From OCS116 cluster bacterium AG-390-A19 (lineage in GTDB: Bacteria; Pseudomonadota; Alphaproteobacteria; MED-G09), in contig QCGV01000001.1 of assembly GCA_003278145.1 (NCBI GenBank), positions 203,616 to 267,615 of the forward strand: 64,000 bases of DNA. Reading direction: 5' to 3'. Position 1 is the stretch's first letter; every line of letters starts with the position of its first letter. The translations under genes and the position numbers were made by a program. Positions 28,320 through 34,075 of this stretch are shown here, in pieces. The notes beneath the pieces were generated by a model, which ran no database searches, was not told where the DNA came from, and saw nothing but the letters and a program-made list of their open reading frames with translations.

Positions 28320-29678
28320 GTGGCTGCTGAAAATATGGATGAGTTAGTCTCTTTATGTAAAAGAAGAGGTTTTATTTACCAAACCAATGAGATCTATGGC
28401 GGCCTTCAAGGTTTATATGATTATGGACCCCTTGGTGTGGAACTCAAAAATAATTTAAAGAATTCATGGTGGAGTTCTATGGTGTATGAGAGAGATGATG
28501 TTGAAGGACTTGACTCCTCTATATTAACTCACCAACATGTTCTTAAGTATTCTGGACACGAAGAAACTTTTACTGATCCCTTAATAGATTGTAGGGATTG
28601 CAAGTCAAGATGGAGAGCTGATCACATTAAAGATAATATATGCCCATCATGTAGTTCAAAAAATCTTACTGAACCAAGACCATTTAACCTTATGTTTAAA
28701 ACCAATGTTGGGCCAGTTGATGATGGATCAAATTTTGCTTATTTAAGGCCTGAAACTGCTCAACAAATTTTTACTAATTTTAAAAATGTAATTGACTCAA
28801 CATCAAGAGTTTTACCCTTTGGCATAGCTCAAATTGGAAAAGCATTTAGAAATGAAATAACACCTAGGAATTTTATCTTTAGAGTCAGAGAATTTGAGCA
28901 GATGGAGTTAGAATTTTTTGTTGAGCCTGGTACTGATGAAGATTGGCACGATAAATGGGTTAAAAAGAGAATTGAATGGTGGGAGAACCAAGGGATAAGC
29001 ATAGAAAATATTCAATTAATTGATGTTCCTAAAGAAGATCTTTCCCATTATTCTAAAAAAACAATAGATATTATGTATAAATTTCCTCATGGAGTTGAAG
29101 AACTTGAAGGAATTGCTAATAGAACTGACTTTGATATTGGTTCACATACAAGACATCAAAAAGATTTTAAAATTGAATCTAAGGTTATTGAAAATGAACA
29201 TTCGGTTACTAAATTAGCAATTCAAAACAAAAAAAATAATGAATGGGTTATACCTTTTGTAATAGAGCCATCAGCTGGTGTTGATAGAGGTGTTCTGGCC
29301 GTATTAAATGAGGCTTATAAAACTGAAAAATTTGCTGATGGCAAGGAAAGAACTCTTCTTGCTCTTAAACCTCATCTTTCTCCAATAAAAGCTGCAATTA
29401 TTCCTTTAAAAAGGAATAACGAAGAAATTGTATCAAAAGCATTGGATATAAAGAGATTACTCCAAAGTTTAAAATTAGGTAGAGTCTTATTAGATAATTC
29501 AGGTAACATTGGTAAAAGTTACAGAAGGCATGATGAAATAGGTACTCCAATGTGTGTTACTGTTGATTTTCAAAGTTTAGAAGACGATACAATTACCGTT
29601 AGAGATAGAGATTCAATGGAACAAGTTAGAATAAGTTACAATGAAGTATCTGAGTATTTTCAAAAAAATCTTTTATAG
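28320..29678 (+). CDS. glyS: Glycyl-tRNA synthetase, single-chain alpha2 (eukaryote-like) type
   Basis: A class IIa glycyl-tRNA synthetase of the homodimeric type, not the bacterial alpha-beta heterotetramer. Motifs: [33 protein letters not shown] near the N terminus, a zinc-ribbon-like CRDCKSRW...CPSCSSKN insert, [13 protein letters not shown], and the motif 2 region [33 protein letters not shown]. An HGTP-type anticodon-binding domain forms the C terminus. I choose GTG at 28320, 6 nt after GGAGG; the track start (TTG, 28305) overlaps that site. The product is 452 aa. It precedes the shortened PPDK by 14 bp. Confidence 0.95.
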
Positions 29679-29692
29679 GCATAGCTTATTAA

Positions 29693-31381
29693 ATGGAAAA
29701 ATGGATTTATAGTTTTAACAAGAGTATTGATGAAATAGAAAATCCATCTGAATTATTGGGGAATAAAGGCGCAAGCTTAAATTTAATGACAGGTTTAGAT
29801 TTGCCTGTTCCTCAGGGTTTTACAATACTTACAAAACTAAATCATTATTTTCAAAGAAATAAATCCTTTCCAAATGAATTTGAGAATGAATTAATTAATA
29901 ATATTTTTAATTTAGAAAAAATATCAAACTGTAAATTTGGTTCTAGTACAAATCCTTTGTTGCTCTCTGTAAGGTCTGGATCACAAAAATCTATGCCTGG
30001 TATGCTTGATACAATTCTAAATATTGGATTTAACAGAAAAGTATTAGAGTTTTACGAAAAACAAAATAAACCTCTATTTGCTTGGGATACATGGCGACGT
30101 TTTCTTCATATGTTTTCACATGTGGTATATAAGATTGAACATTTTTATTTCGATGAGATTTTAGATAGCTACCTTTTGGGCGCAGGTCTTCAATTTGAGA
30201 AAGATTTGGAGGTAAATGATATCCAGGAAATTTGTAGTCAGTATTTAACCTTGATCGAGGATAGGATTGGTAAACCTTTTCCAGAGGATGTCAATGAACA
30301 ACTTATGCTTGGTATCAAAGCAGTTATGGAGTCATGGTTTAATGAGAGAGCAATCGACTATAGAAGAATAAACGATATTCCTGAAGATTTTGGTACAGCT
30401 GTAAATATTCAAAGAATGGTTTTTGGTAATTTAGATGATGAAAGTGCAACAGGTGTTGTATTCTCCAGGAATCCTCAGGATGGAAAGAAAAGGTTAAAAG
30501 GTGAGTATATTATTAGATCTCAGGGTGAAGATATTGTATCTGGCTTTAAGACGCCTTGGGCTATAAGTAATATTGACAAAGGCGAGTCCTCATCAACAAT
30601 TTTATCATTAGAGGAAAAATTTCCTATTTGTTATAAAGAGTTAGAGAAATTTTCTCAAAAATTAGAAAATTATTTTTCATGCGTTCAAGATATTGAATTT
30701 ACTATTGAAGCAGGAAAATTATGGATTTTACAATCAAGAAGAGCGGAATCAAATATTGAGGCCTCTCTAGTAATTTTTTGTGATATGGTTAAAGAGGGGT
30801 TAATTACAAAACAGGAAGTAATTTTATCCTTAGATATAGAGAAAATTGAAAAATTATTATCACCTATTATTGATCCAAAAAATAAAAATGAAATATTAAC
30901 TAGAGGTCTTCCAGCTTCTCTAGGTGTGGTATCAGGGATGGTGGTATTTGACTTTGAAACTTTAATAAAATTTAAGAATAAAAAACAGAAAACAATCCTA
31001 GTTTTAAAAGAGACAAATGCAAATGATATTAAAGCGATGCATGCCTCATCTGGTATTTTAACTTCTCAAGGTGGCATGACAAGCCATGCTGCGGTAGTAG
31101 CAAGAGGTCTTGGCAAAACATGTGTTACTGGTGCAAGAGATATAAAAATTGATACAGACAATAAGAGATTTCATTGTGGAGGTAAATTCATAACCGAGGG
31201 ACAAATTATTACTATCAATGGCGAAAATGGTGAGGTATTACTTGGAGAAACCCCAACAATTATTCCTGATTTACCTAAATCACTGAATAAAATTTTGATT
31301 TGGTGTAAGGAAATTAATAAAAATCAAACTGATAATATTTTTGTTTTTCTTAGTAAGACCAAGGAAATTATTAATCAATAA
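29693..31381 (+). CDS. Pyruvate phosphate dikinase N-terminal and phosphohistidine domains only (C-terminal PEP/pyruvate domain absent)
   Basis: The 562-residue protein aligns by eye to the first two thirds of PPDK: an ATP-binding region (LGNKGASLNLMTGLDLPVPQGF, LLSVRSGSQKSMPGMLDTILNIG, ATGVVFSRNPQDGKKRLKGEY, RSQGEDIVSGFKTP, LWILQSRRAE) and the swivelling phosphohistidine domain (LTSQGGMTSHAAVVARGLGKT) with His465. Full PPDKs are about 870-890 residues. This one ends about 40 residues into the linker (ILIWCKEINKNQ) and lacks the TIM barrel that binds pyruvate/PEP. The convergent SDR gene ends 6 bp later, leaving no room for a frameshifted remnant. It may be a relic, or a dikinase half working with a separate partner. 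Confidence 0.9.
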   Translation: MEKWIYSFNKSIDEIENPSELLGNKGASLNLMTGLDLPVPQGFTILTKLNHYFQRNKSFPNEFENELINNIFNLEKISNCKFGSSTNPLLLSVRSGSQKSMPGMLDTILNIGFNRKVLEFYEKQNKPLFAWDTWRRFLHMFSHVVYKIEHFYFDEILDSYLLGAGLQFEKDLEVNDIQEICSQYLTLIEDRIGKPFPEDVNEQLMLGIKAVMESWFNERAIDYRRINDIPEDFGTAVNIQRMVFGNLDDESATGVVFSRNPQDGKKRLKGEYIIRSQGEDIVSGFKTPWAISNIDKGESSSTILSLEEKFPICYKELEKFSQKLENYFSCVQDIEFTIEAGKLWILQSRRAESNIEASLVIFCDMVKEGLITKQEVILSLDIEKIEKLLSPIIDPKNKNEILTRGLPASLGVVSGMVVFDFETLIKFKNKKQKTILVLKETNANDIKAMHASSGILTSQGGMTSHAAVVARGLGKTCVTGARDIKIDTDNKRFHCGGKFITEGQIITINGENGEVLLGETPTIIPDLPKSLNKILIWCKEINKNQTDNIFVFLSKTKEIINQ

Positions 31382-31387
31382 TTTTTA

Positions 31388-32170
31388 TTAATCATTACTT
31401 AAAGGCCCTGATGTTTTTAGTATTTCTCGAGCATTTAGAGGATTTTTTGCAACTTCCTTTTCAAGATCCTCTAATTCTTTAGGAACATACCAATGAATTT
31501 TATCAGAGTTATAGGCATTCCAAACAGTTTTTGCAATTTCGTCAGATGAAATTAATCTCCAAATACCATCTTTTGGTAAATTTTCTCTAATTTCCTCACT
31601 TATCATAGGTGTATCAATTACTCCAGGAAGTATATCTGCCGCTCTAGAGTTAAATCTTTGAAATTCTGATGAAAGTGACTCGGTTAAACCTTTTACAGCA
31701 TGTTTTGAGGCAGAATATGAAGCAATCATCTCCATTCCCATTATTCCAGAGCTAGAAGAAGTTGTAATGCAAAGAGAATTGGACGTATTCTTTAATAAAT
31801 TTGATGCAGAATATATTCCATTTATAACTCCAATAATATTTATGTTAATAATTTCCATATGAGTTTCATAAGGTATTTCATCAAAAAATCCCCCTTGAGT
31901 AATTCCTGCATTGTTGAAAAGTATATCTAGTTTCCCTCCAGATTTTGATGAAAAATTGTTTATACATTCTTGAAAATTTTCTTTATTTGTTACGTCTAAT
32001 ACTTCGTAGATTATATTTTCATTACCAAGTTCACCTTCCAATTCTAATAGATTTTCTTTATTATTGTCATAACAACCCACAAACCAATTTTTATTCAGAA
32101 ATAATTTTGCTGTTGAGCGTCCCATTCCACCTGCTGCACCAGTTATAAAAATTGATTTTGAATTATTCAT
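31388..32170 (-). CDS. Short-chain dehydrogenase/reductase (SDR), substrate unknown
   Basis: A classical SDR of 260 residues. The cofactor motif is TGAAGGMGRSTAKLF, the structural motif NNAG is present, and the catalytic Ser...YxxxK is seen in ITTSSSSGIMGM and YSASKHAVKGL. An Asp (CYDNN) at the end of the second strand suggests NAD(H) preference. The last gene of the ygfZ-nadA-nadC-SDR run, 10 bp after nadC. Nothing in the sequence fixes the substrate. Confidence 0.85.
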   Translation of the reverse strand: MNNSKSIFITGAAGGMGRSTAKLFLNKNWFVGCYDNNKENLLELEGELGNENIIYEVLDVTNKENFQECINNFSSKSGGKLDILFNNAGITQGGFFDEIPYETHMEIININIIGVINGIYSASNLLKNTSNSLCITTSSSSGIMGMEMIASYSASKHAVKGLTESLSSEFQRFNSRAADILPGVIDTPMISEEIRENLPKDGIWRLISSDEIAKTVWNAYNSDKIHWYVPKELEDLEKEVAKNPLNAREILKTSGPLSND

Positions 32171-32180
32171 TTTGAATACC

Positions 32181-33029
32181 CTAAGAAAAATCTAGACCTA
32201 TATCTAGAGATGGTGATGAGTGAGTTATCCAACCGGATGAAATTAAATTTACACCAGTCTTTGCAATTTCAAGAATAGAGCTTTTTGTTATTTTACCAGA
32301 TGCCTCTAATATTTTATTTTTTTTATTTAAGCTAACTGCCTTTATAAGGTCTTCTAATTCAAAATTATCTAAAAGAATTGCATCAGCTGTGGTTTCTAGC
32401 GCCTCTTTGTATTGATCAAGATTATCAACCTCAACCTCTATATTAACCATATGACCACATTTTGATCTTGCTAAAGATACTGAATTACTTAAAGAGCCTG
32501 AAAGGGCTAGATGATTATCTTTTATTAATATTCCATCATAAAGGCCAAAACGATGATTCATACCACCACCATCTTTCACAGCAAATTTTTCCAATATTCT
32601 AAGATTTGGAGTAGTTTTTCTTGTTGAAACAATTTTTGTATTTGTTTTCGAAATTAAATTTACCATTTCATTTGTTGCTGATGCTATTCCTGATAAATGA
32701 CTTAGAAAATTTAAAGCAGTTCTTTCGGCACTTAGTATCGAGGAAGCAGTCCCTCTTACAGTTGCAATAATATCGCCTTCTTTTACAGGTGAGCCATTAG
32801 TTAATTTTTTTTCAAAAACCAAACTATTATCAAGAAGATTAAACGATAATTCAGCAACTTTTATTCCAGAAACAATTCCTTTTGATCTAGATTTTAAAAC
32901 AAAGCTACTTTCAATGCTCTTATCAATAATTGAACTACTAGTAATATCACCTTGTTGACCTAAGTCTTCATATAATGCATTTTTTACAATTTTCTCTAAC
33001 GAAAATCCTAATGGATTGCTTTCAATCAT
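32181..33029 (-). CDS. nadC: Nicotinate-nucleotide pyrophosphorylase (carboxylating)
   Basis: NadC converts quinolinate and PRPP to nicotinate mononucleotide in de novo NAD synthesis. The 282-residue protein has ALYEDLGQQGDITSSSI, LNFLSHLSGIASAT, the PRPP/quinolinate segment VSTRKTTPNLRILEKFAVKDGG and MNHRFGLYDGILIKDNH, and ends with GWITHSSPSLDIGLDF. It overlaps nadA by 4 bp (ATGA), so the two are translationally coupled. No nadB (L-aspartate oxidase) lies beside them. Confidence 0.96.
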   Translation of the reverse strand: MIESNPLGFSLEKIVKNALYEDLGQQGDITSSSIIDKSIESSFVLKSRSKGIVSGIKVAELSFNLLDNSLVFEKKLTNGSPVKEGDIIATVRGTASSILSAERTALNFLSHLSGIASATNEMVNLISKTNTKIVSTRKTTPNLRILEKFAVKDGGGMNHRFGLYDGILIKDNHLALSGSLSNSVSLARSKCGHMVNIEVEVDNLDQYKEALETTADAILLDNFELEDLIKAVSLNKKNKILEASGKITKSSILEIAKTGVNLISSGWITHSSPSLDIGLDFS

Positions 33030-34075
33030 AATTCAATCATTTTAACAATTGCTTGCTTTGCTTTAATTGCAATTTCTGGATTAATTTTTATTTCTGTCTT
33101 TTTGTTCCAGAGTGATTCAAGAATATTTTCTAAATTTATTGTTTTCATATGAGGACATAAATTACATGGTCTTACAAAATTTACATTTGGATTTTCAACA
33201 GAAATATTATCACTCATTGAGCATTCCGTAACCATTAAAACTTTTTTTGGTTGGTTGTCTTTAACCCAATTAATCATAGCTGATGTTGAGCCTGAAAAAT
33301 CTGATTGAGCTACAACTTCCGGAGAACACTCAGGGTGGGCTATAACTTTAACACCAGGTTCATTTTCTCTAAACTCAACTATTTCTTCAGGAGTAAATTC
33401 TTCATGAACTTCACATCTACCTTTCCACATAATGATTTTCTTTTTTGTTTCTTTTGCAATATTCATTGCAAGATATTCATCAGGTAAAAATATAATTTCC
33501 TTAGATTCTAGAGAATTAACTATATCAAGTGCATTTGATGATGTGCAGCAAATATCTGACTCAGCCTTGACTTCGGCTGATGTATTAACATAAGTAACAA
33601 CAGGGATATTTGGATTTTCCTTTTTTATTTTTCTAACATCTTCCCCAGTTATTGACTCTGCTAAAGAACATCCTGCCTCCATACTAGGTATAAGCACAGT
33701 TTTATCCATATTTAAAAGTTTTGAGGTTTCTGCCATGAAGTGAACACCACATTGTAAAATTATATCTGCATTTACATTTCCCGCTTCTTTGGCTAACTGC
33801 AAAGAGTCACCTCTGATATCACTAATGCAATGAAATATTTCTGGAGTTTGATAATTGTGTGCTAAAATAACTGCATTCATATCTTTTTTAAGAATATTAA
33901 TTGCTTTTATATATGGTGCAAAAAAAGGCCACTCAATTTCAGGAATAACTCTAGAAACTTTGCTATATTGATCTGCAGTTTCTTCAAGCATTTTTCCTGA
34001 CCAAGAAATATTCATTTCTTTTAGTATTTCAGGACCTGATAAAAAATCTTTATTTTTTGTATTTTGTTCTTTCAT
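33026..34075 (-). CDS. nadA: Quinolinate synthase NadA
   Basis: NadA condenses iminoaspartate with dihydroxyacetone phosphate to quinolinate using a [4Fe-4S] cluster. The 349-residue protein has AVILAHNYQTPEIFHCISD, the region QCGVHFMAETSKLLNMDKTV (first cluster Cys), EAGCSLAES, the middle Cys in RCEVHEEF or HPECSPEV, and the last in CNLCPHMKTINLENI. Iminoaspartate must come from NadB or an aspartate dehydrogenase encoded elsewhere. It lies 12 bp after ygfZ, itself an Fe-S-enzyme maturation factor. Confidence 0.96.
   Translation of the reverse strand: MKEQNTKNKDFLSGPEILKEMNISWSGKMLEETADQYSKVSRVIPEIEWPFFAPYIKAINILKKDMNAVILAHNYQTPEIFHCISDIRGDSLQLAKEAGNVNADIILQCGVHFMAETSKLLNMDKTVLIPSMEAGCSLAESITGEDVRKIKKENPNIPVVTYVNTSAEVKAESDICCTSSNALDIVNSLESKEIIFLPDEYLAMNIAKETKKKIIMWKGRCEVHEEFTPEEIVEFRENEPGVKVIAHPECSPEVVAQSDFSGSTSAMINWVKDNQPKKVLMVTECSMSDNISVENPNVNFVRPCNLCPHMKTINLENILESLWNKKTEIKINPEIAIKAKQAIVKMIEL

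Follow-up and report, generated by a model that had tools for sequence, protein, structure and literature searches.

Pyruvate, phosphate dikinase (PPDK) occurs as a shortened, two-domain protein in a 64,000-nucleotide stretch of DNA from OCS116 cluster bacterium AG-390-A19, a PS1-clade alphaproteobacterium. This whole stretch is referred to here as the window. Its ppdK gene encodes the ATP-grasp nucleotide-binding domain and the phosphohistidine swivel domain of PPDK, without the phosphoenolpyruvate (PEP)/pyruvate TIM barrel. The short gene is kept under purifying selection in the PS1-clade order; both a recent truncation and an assembly error are excluded. Judged from sequence and gene order, it is the ancestral alphaproteobacterial ppdK, which lost its last domain at the base of the order. 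A moderately probable role for its product, drawn from sequence and from the analogy with VadK of Mycobacterium tuberculosis, is that of a regulatory phosphate carrier or switch with a partner in central metabolism.

Domain architecture and active site

The gene and its parts occupy the following positions in the window.

29693-31381, plus strand: short ppdK, 562 amino acids, a PPDK without the PEP/pyruvate TIM barrel; from ATG at 29693 to TAA at 31381, with 0 internal stops
29693-30748, plus strand: ATP-grasp nucleotide-binding domain (NBD), residues ~1-352, carrying the invariant site residues
30152-30190, plus strand: short-family motif D-E-I-L-[DE]-x-Y-L-L-G-A-[GN]-L, residues 154-166, in the NBD2 lobe, from the alignment
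30878-31243, plus strand: phosphohistidine swivel domain, residues ~396-517, from Pfam, alignment, and structure match
31079-31087, plus strand: Thr463-Ser464-His465; the catalytic His equals H455 of Clostridium symbiosum PPDK, and the Thr equals T453, the target of the PPDK regulatory protein (PDRP)
31244-31381, plus strand: C-terminal tail, residues 518-562, plus the stop, standing in place of the ~330-residue TIM barrel

Pfam identifies only PPDK_N (PF01326) and the His mobile domain (PF00391) in the 562-residue product, with no match to PEP-utilizers_C. The full PPDK model, TIGR01828, is covered from positions 2 to 528 of 865 and gives 601 bits, below its cut-off of 843. In a phmmer search of PDB sequences, the best matches are PPDKs, and query residues 1-540 align with residues 1-530 of the 874-residue C. 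symbiosum enzyme. About 45 residues follow the swivel domain, whose end lies near residue 517; His465 is 97 residues from the C-terminus. W537 is retained in this tail, and the last ~20 residues are divergent. No acceptor-binding domain of the two-component or RPH type is fused to the swivel domain, since the product holds two Pfam domains and a 45-residue tail only. The first-pass annotation had described a PPDK that retains just the ATP-grasp and phosphohistidine domains, with intact motifs and an end about 40 residues after the swivel domain, and these results agree with it.

The active site is conserved. K25, R94, G103, R136, Q240, G254, E279, D280, D333, E335, Q347, R349, Thr463, and His465 do not vary across the 13 short and 15 full-length proteins compared. 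In C. symbiosum numbering, these sites are K22, R92, G101, R135, Q240, G254, E279, D280, D321, E323, Q335, R337, T453, and H455. The NBD docking residues R219 and E271 are also invariant; both are mutated in the 2r82 triple mutant, where the swivel domain is shifted to its second position (PDB entry title). K340, R341, and E434 are invariant in full-length PPDKs and replaced in the short family.

Within-order conservation, relative to full-length proteins, is 0.66-0.87 in the ATP-grasp and swivel domains, 0.46 in the linker, and 0.28-0.54 in the tail. Relative conservation in the short protein is highest in the NBD2 lobe. This lobe contains the 154-166 motif, DEIL[DE]xYLLGA[GN]L, which is variable in full-length PPDKs, is conserved in the short family alone, and is a candidate for a new contact surface.

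An AlphaFold model made with an alignment of 22 family sequences has a mean predicted local distance difference test score (pLDDT) of 87.6. The best PDB match of the model is C. symbiosum PPDK (1kbl), with a template modeling (TM) score of 0.82 by query length at 3.6 Å, and it matches the isolated swivel domain 2fm4 with a TM score of 0.89 by target length. The model fits structures with a different swivel placement, such as 2r82 and most plant forms, less well than 1kbl. In 2r82 the swivel domain is placed at the PEP side (PMC5371819), so the predicted model appears to resemble the ATP-side arrangement.

Conservation and selection in the PS1-clade order

The order was sampled as one family comprising 18 genomes in three genera. 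The window falls in this clade; locus L001, with 87% identity, is labeled 'uncultured PS1 clade bacterium'. A ppdK match is present in 16 of the 18 genomes. All 13 complete copies are short (555-564 residues), come from all three genera, and range in identity from 100 down to ~50%; the remaining matches are partial, lying at contig ends or in fragments. No full-length ppdK was found at the locus in close relatives. Among 212 alphaproteobacterial genomes, the orthologues outside the PS1 family, among the matches listed, all lie in frames of at least 870 residues. The full-length ppdK of another alphaproteobacterium (L030 in genome G038) is interrupted by one in-frame TAG, which may reflect an error or decay.

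Pairwise ratios of nonsynonymous to synonymous substitution rates (dN/dS) are far below 1. They are 0.06-0.10 in the genus of the host (dS 0.7-1.2) and 0.15-0.20 in the second genus; one very close pair, with dS of 0.05, gives an uninformative 0.41. The tail has a ratio of 0.2-0.4 within the host genus, a sign of weaker constraint. The earlier suggestion of selection on the shortened protein is thus upheld by its order-wide conservation, its low dN/dS, and its invariant active site.

The first-pass annotation had also allowed for an early relic, and decay often sets in with the loss of a catalytic domain. A decaying relic, a frameshift, or an assembly deletion has a negligible probability here and is rejected. 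The 13 same-length copies come from separate assemblies, their dN/dS is 0.06-0.2, the active site is invariant, and no barrel remnant was found.

Gene order and origin

The flanking genes in the window are as follows.

28320-29678, plus strand: dimeric-type glycyl-tRNA synthetase (GlyRS), 14 bp upstream of ppdK
31388-32170, minus strand: short-chain dehydrogenase/reductase (SDR) oxidoreductase, convergent, ending 6 bp past the ppdK stop

The order ETF-QO, ispE, ispB, methyltransferase, GlyRS, ppdK, SDR, nadC, nadA is found in all three genera, with the convergent SDR gene at the same place next to ppdK in each. Genome G035 (locus L080) has a full-length ppdK of 888 residues in the corresponding order, after glyQ-glyS and before nadC-nadB-nadA, where the middle open reading frame (ORF) is assigned as nadB from position and length only. 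This synteny of the glycyl-tRNA synthetase, ppdK, nadC, and nadA genes indicates that the short gene is the ancestral ppdK minus its last domain.

Two further differences are seen at this locus. The glyQ-glyS pair (L080 5311-8249), which encodes the two-subunit bacterial glycyl-tRNA synthetase and adjoins ppdK in other alphaproteobacteria, is swapped at the same place in the PS1 order for a single-chain, dimeric-type GlyRS, which scores 464 bits against a cut-off of 243. The GlyRS displacement and the ppdK domain loss affect adjacent genes. At 32181-34075 of the window, nadC adjoins nadA, and the intervening L080 ORF of 538 residues at the nadB position is absent. The aspartate-oxidizing step of NAD synthesis may therefore have a different supply.

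Absence of the PEP/pyruvate barrel

C-terminal halves of 15 alphaproteobacterial PPDKs were used in tblastn searches of the window and seven related loci, and no trace of the barrel was found at E<=1. The full-length ppdK locus used as a control was detected at once. The earlier claim that no remnant is hidden, with the SDR gene ending so close to the stop, is in line with this result.

The barrel family PF02896 (PEP-utilizers_C) has no match in 10 genomes of the host genus (the host and nine congeners, two of them 96-97% complete). In the second genus, it is matched only below cut-off, in ORFs of 350-360 residues that are possibly CoA-ester lyases. The third genus, represented by genome G011, has one strong match, which is enzyme I (EI) of the phosphotransferase system (PTS). 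All 14 control genomes gave matches.

A split PPDK, completed by a free-standing PEP/pyruvate barrel encoded at another site, is conceivable as an arrangement and is very improbable in view of these PF02896 searches. The idea in the first-pass annotation that phosphate passes to a separate PEP-domain protein fails on the same ground, with the best host-genus genome being 97% complete. Its other option, transfer to a different acceptor, gains a regulatory direction from the retained PDRP gene. No other dikinase or PPDK-type PDRP target besides the short protein was found in the order genomes.

Relation to VadK and other short PPDKs

VadK (Rv1127c), a PPDK in truncated form, uses ATP/Mg to autophosphorylate its catalytic His, which is required in vivo (PMC13400623). 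It binds methylcitrate-cycle enzymes (PMC13400623). VadK and the actinobacterial short PPDKs (NF004531/PRK05878) resemble the PS1 protein in having only the ATP-grasp and His swivel domains in a genome without a completing PEP domain (PMC13400623). Unlike VadK, the PS1 proteins lie at the ancestral alphaproteobacterial ppdK locus and score below the NF004531 cut-off of 456 bits (405, 394, and 416 bits for the three genera). The PS1 genomes also differ from the VadK case in keeping PDRP and in having no PrpD, one of the two methylcitrate-cycle partners of VadK.

The PS1 short PPDK is probably a derivation independent of VadK. In the tree, the PS1 short proteins form one clade with support of 100/100. 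In a reduced tree, with the long-branch short forms left out and Clostridium and Bathyarchaeota sequences for comparison, they form one clade with the alphaproteobacterial full-length PPDKs (98/95). The PS1 proteins also have the N-terminal KW-[IV]-[YH]-x-F start and the xPxL linker, like full-length alphaproteobacterial PPDKs.

The alternative is a shared origin with the VadK/PRK05878-type short PPDKs, with a transferred short form having replaced ppdK in place. When the PS1 proteins are placed in a single clade with the remaining short forms, an approximately unbiased (AU) test gives p of 0.555, a result that allows a common origin and in which the short forms are long branches. Independence from VadK thus rests mainly on synteny, with the reduced tree in addition. 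A shared origin is nevertheless improbable, given that the PS1 locus is syntenic with full-length ppdK loci, that the window protein scores 405 bits to NF004531 yet 601 bits to the PPDK model, that the start and linker motifs are those of full-length alphaproteobacterial PPDKs, and that the PS1 proteins group with the latter once long branches are dropped.

The alphaproteobacterial short paralogues L065, L066, and L116 have the same two-domain architecture as the PS1 protein, with 34-36% identity to it for L065 and L066. In G021 and G050 they accompany a full-length ppdK, and they lie far from PS1 in the tree. No relatives of the PS1 short PPDK were found in IMG/VR, and phage PPDK-like proteins are distant (35-42%). 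Vibrio phage vB_VibS_KarBoss (L113 2992-5145) encodes a 717-residue PPDK-like protein in which Pfam assigns only PPDK_N and the His domain, leaving ~220 unassigned C-terminal residues. A 691-residue phage PPDK has been described with the PEP-binding barrel (PMC12038007). On Rhodococcus opacus plasmid pROB02 (L115 2836-4548), a 570-residue short PPDK is found among cytochrome P450, ferredoxin, and FAD oxidoreductase genes, a setting that suggests a catabolic small-molecule dikinase. On Methylocella tundrae plasmid p1 (L116 1116-4584), a 526-residue short PPDK overlaps the end of a 631-residue DUF47/PhoU_div protein, and the two are a possible functional pair.

PDRP and the proposed switch

PDRP phosphorylates the Thr of PPDK only if the catalytic His is phosphorylated (PMC6019023; PMC2817694). 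Its signals are ADP and inorganic phosphate (Pi). The host genome encodes PDRP (PF03618; G000:C2:190262-191032, 5e-93). PDRP is present in 10 of the 13 order genomes searched, in one of them as a fragment, and its active site looks intact from the SRTSKTPT and HDDG motifs. It was missed in G011 and in two genomes that are incomplete (76% and 55%). Across the 212 alphaproteobacteria, PDRP closely tracks PPDK: 145 have both, 23 PPDK only, two PDRP only, and 42 neither. Retention of PDRP, with the short protein as the only PPDK-type target found, suggests, as an independent line of evidence, that His465 is charged in the cell.

The proposed mechanism begins with the ancestor of the PS1 order, in which the ppdK behind the glycyl-tRNA synthetase gene would have lost its C-terminal PEP/pyruvate domain, with the remaining two-domain protein retained under selection. 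The short protein would keep the first PPDK half reaction, in which His465 is phosphorylated from ATP (with Pi) at the ATP-grasp site, as the invariant active site and the VadK precedent suggest. It would be unable to make PEP or to use it. With phosphate on His465, the protein may then bind a partner in central metabolism or hand its phosphate to one. In genomes with PDRP, the kinase/phosphorylase would toggle the protein through Thr463 when His465 is charged, with ADP and Pi as signals. A more specific form of this mechanism is put forward tentatively: stripped PPDK and PDRP, repurposed independently of VadK, may form a two-protein phosphohistidine/phosphothreonine switch that reads ATP, ADP, and Pi and regulates central metabolism throughout this order of streamlined marine Alphaproteobacteria, two of whose three genera lack a PTS.

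Several points weigh against a regulatory carrier or switch under PDRP control. Genome G011 (third genus, 95% complete) has no detected PDRP and has both EI and HPr, so PDRP control is not universal in the order. The Fisher p of 3e-25 for the co-occurrence of PDRP and PPDK treats related genomes as independent. PDRP could act on another, unrecognized substrate. The lost PEP domain is the one through which canonical PPDK dimerizes, and activity is ascribed to the dimer; the activity of the short form is thus not guaranteed.

Two other functions are considered. In a two-component dikinase, the short protein would be the ATP/His half, a separate protein would hold a small acceptor, and the pair would phosphorylate a metabolite. 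Split phenol dikinases of this kind exist (HpeHI, CreHI, PpsAB), the swivel domain of homologues visits two sites (PMC12167813), and the ATP half is intact in the PS1 protein. RPH, HpeHI, CreHI, and PpsAB share with the PS1 protein the ATP-grasp and His swivel chemistry and the lack of a PEP barrel; they have a different acceptor domain that is absent from the PS1 protein, and the structural match of the model to RPH and HpeI is at 11-17% identity only. The conserved neighbors GlyRS, SDR, nadC, and nadA suggest no partner, save the ever-present convergent SDR, and a two-component dikinase is unlikely.

In an energy sensor without transfer, the charge on His465 would cycle with ATP, AMP, pyrophosphate, and Pi, and only the conformation or PDRP state would matter, through partner binding. 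The PPDK half reaction is reversible, PDRP reads ADP and Pi, and VadK is currently modeled as acting by competition for binding, not by phosphotransfer (PMC13400623). Sequence cannot tell such a sensor from a phosphocarrier, and a pure sensor is given a slightly smaller chance than the two-component dikinase.

Metabolic context

For the regulatory carrier or switch, several partners can be set aside. HPr and EI are undetected in the two larger genera, and EIIA-Ntr is absent from all 13 order genomes searched. Phosphotransfer to the PTS is therefore rejected for the two larger genera. MmgE/PrpD is likewise found in none of the 13, which removes a VadK-like role in the methylcitrate cycle and means that the target of the PS1 protein must differ from that of VadK. 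PrpD, HPr, and EIIA thus drop out as targets for the two larger genera; G011 has HPr. PEPCK is encoded in 11 of the 13 genomes and pyruvate kinase in seven, so PEP metabolism in those genomes is independent of the short protein.

Significance

Canonical PPDK (TIGR01828, EC 2.7.9.1) and the PS1 protein lie at orthologous loci, agree in sequence and fold along residues 1-530, and have the same catalytic and regulatory residues. Unlike PPDK, the PS1 protein has no PEP/pyruvate domain and with it no second half reaction or dimer interface. A truncated PPDK with a regulatory role has been known since 2025-2026. No description of an order-wide alphaproteobacterial short PPDK at the ancestral locus, in genomes that retain the regulator and have lost the PTS, was found in the literature searched, and the results listed for PS1-clade genomes hold no mention of a short ppdK.

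The gene is likely annotated as pyruvate, phosphate dikinase, and metabolic models would then wrongly assign PEP-pyruvate interconversion to these bacteria. If the proposed role is correct, mycobacteria would not be the only bacteria in which PPDK became a non-canonical histidine kinase or regulator by losing a domain. The change would have arisen, probably separately, in an ocean lineage that retained the ancestral regulator. The PS1 clade would also offer a second, non-pathogen system for finding the phosphorylation or binding targets of such proteins.
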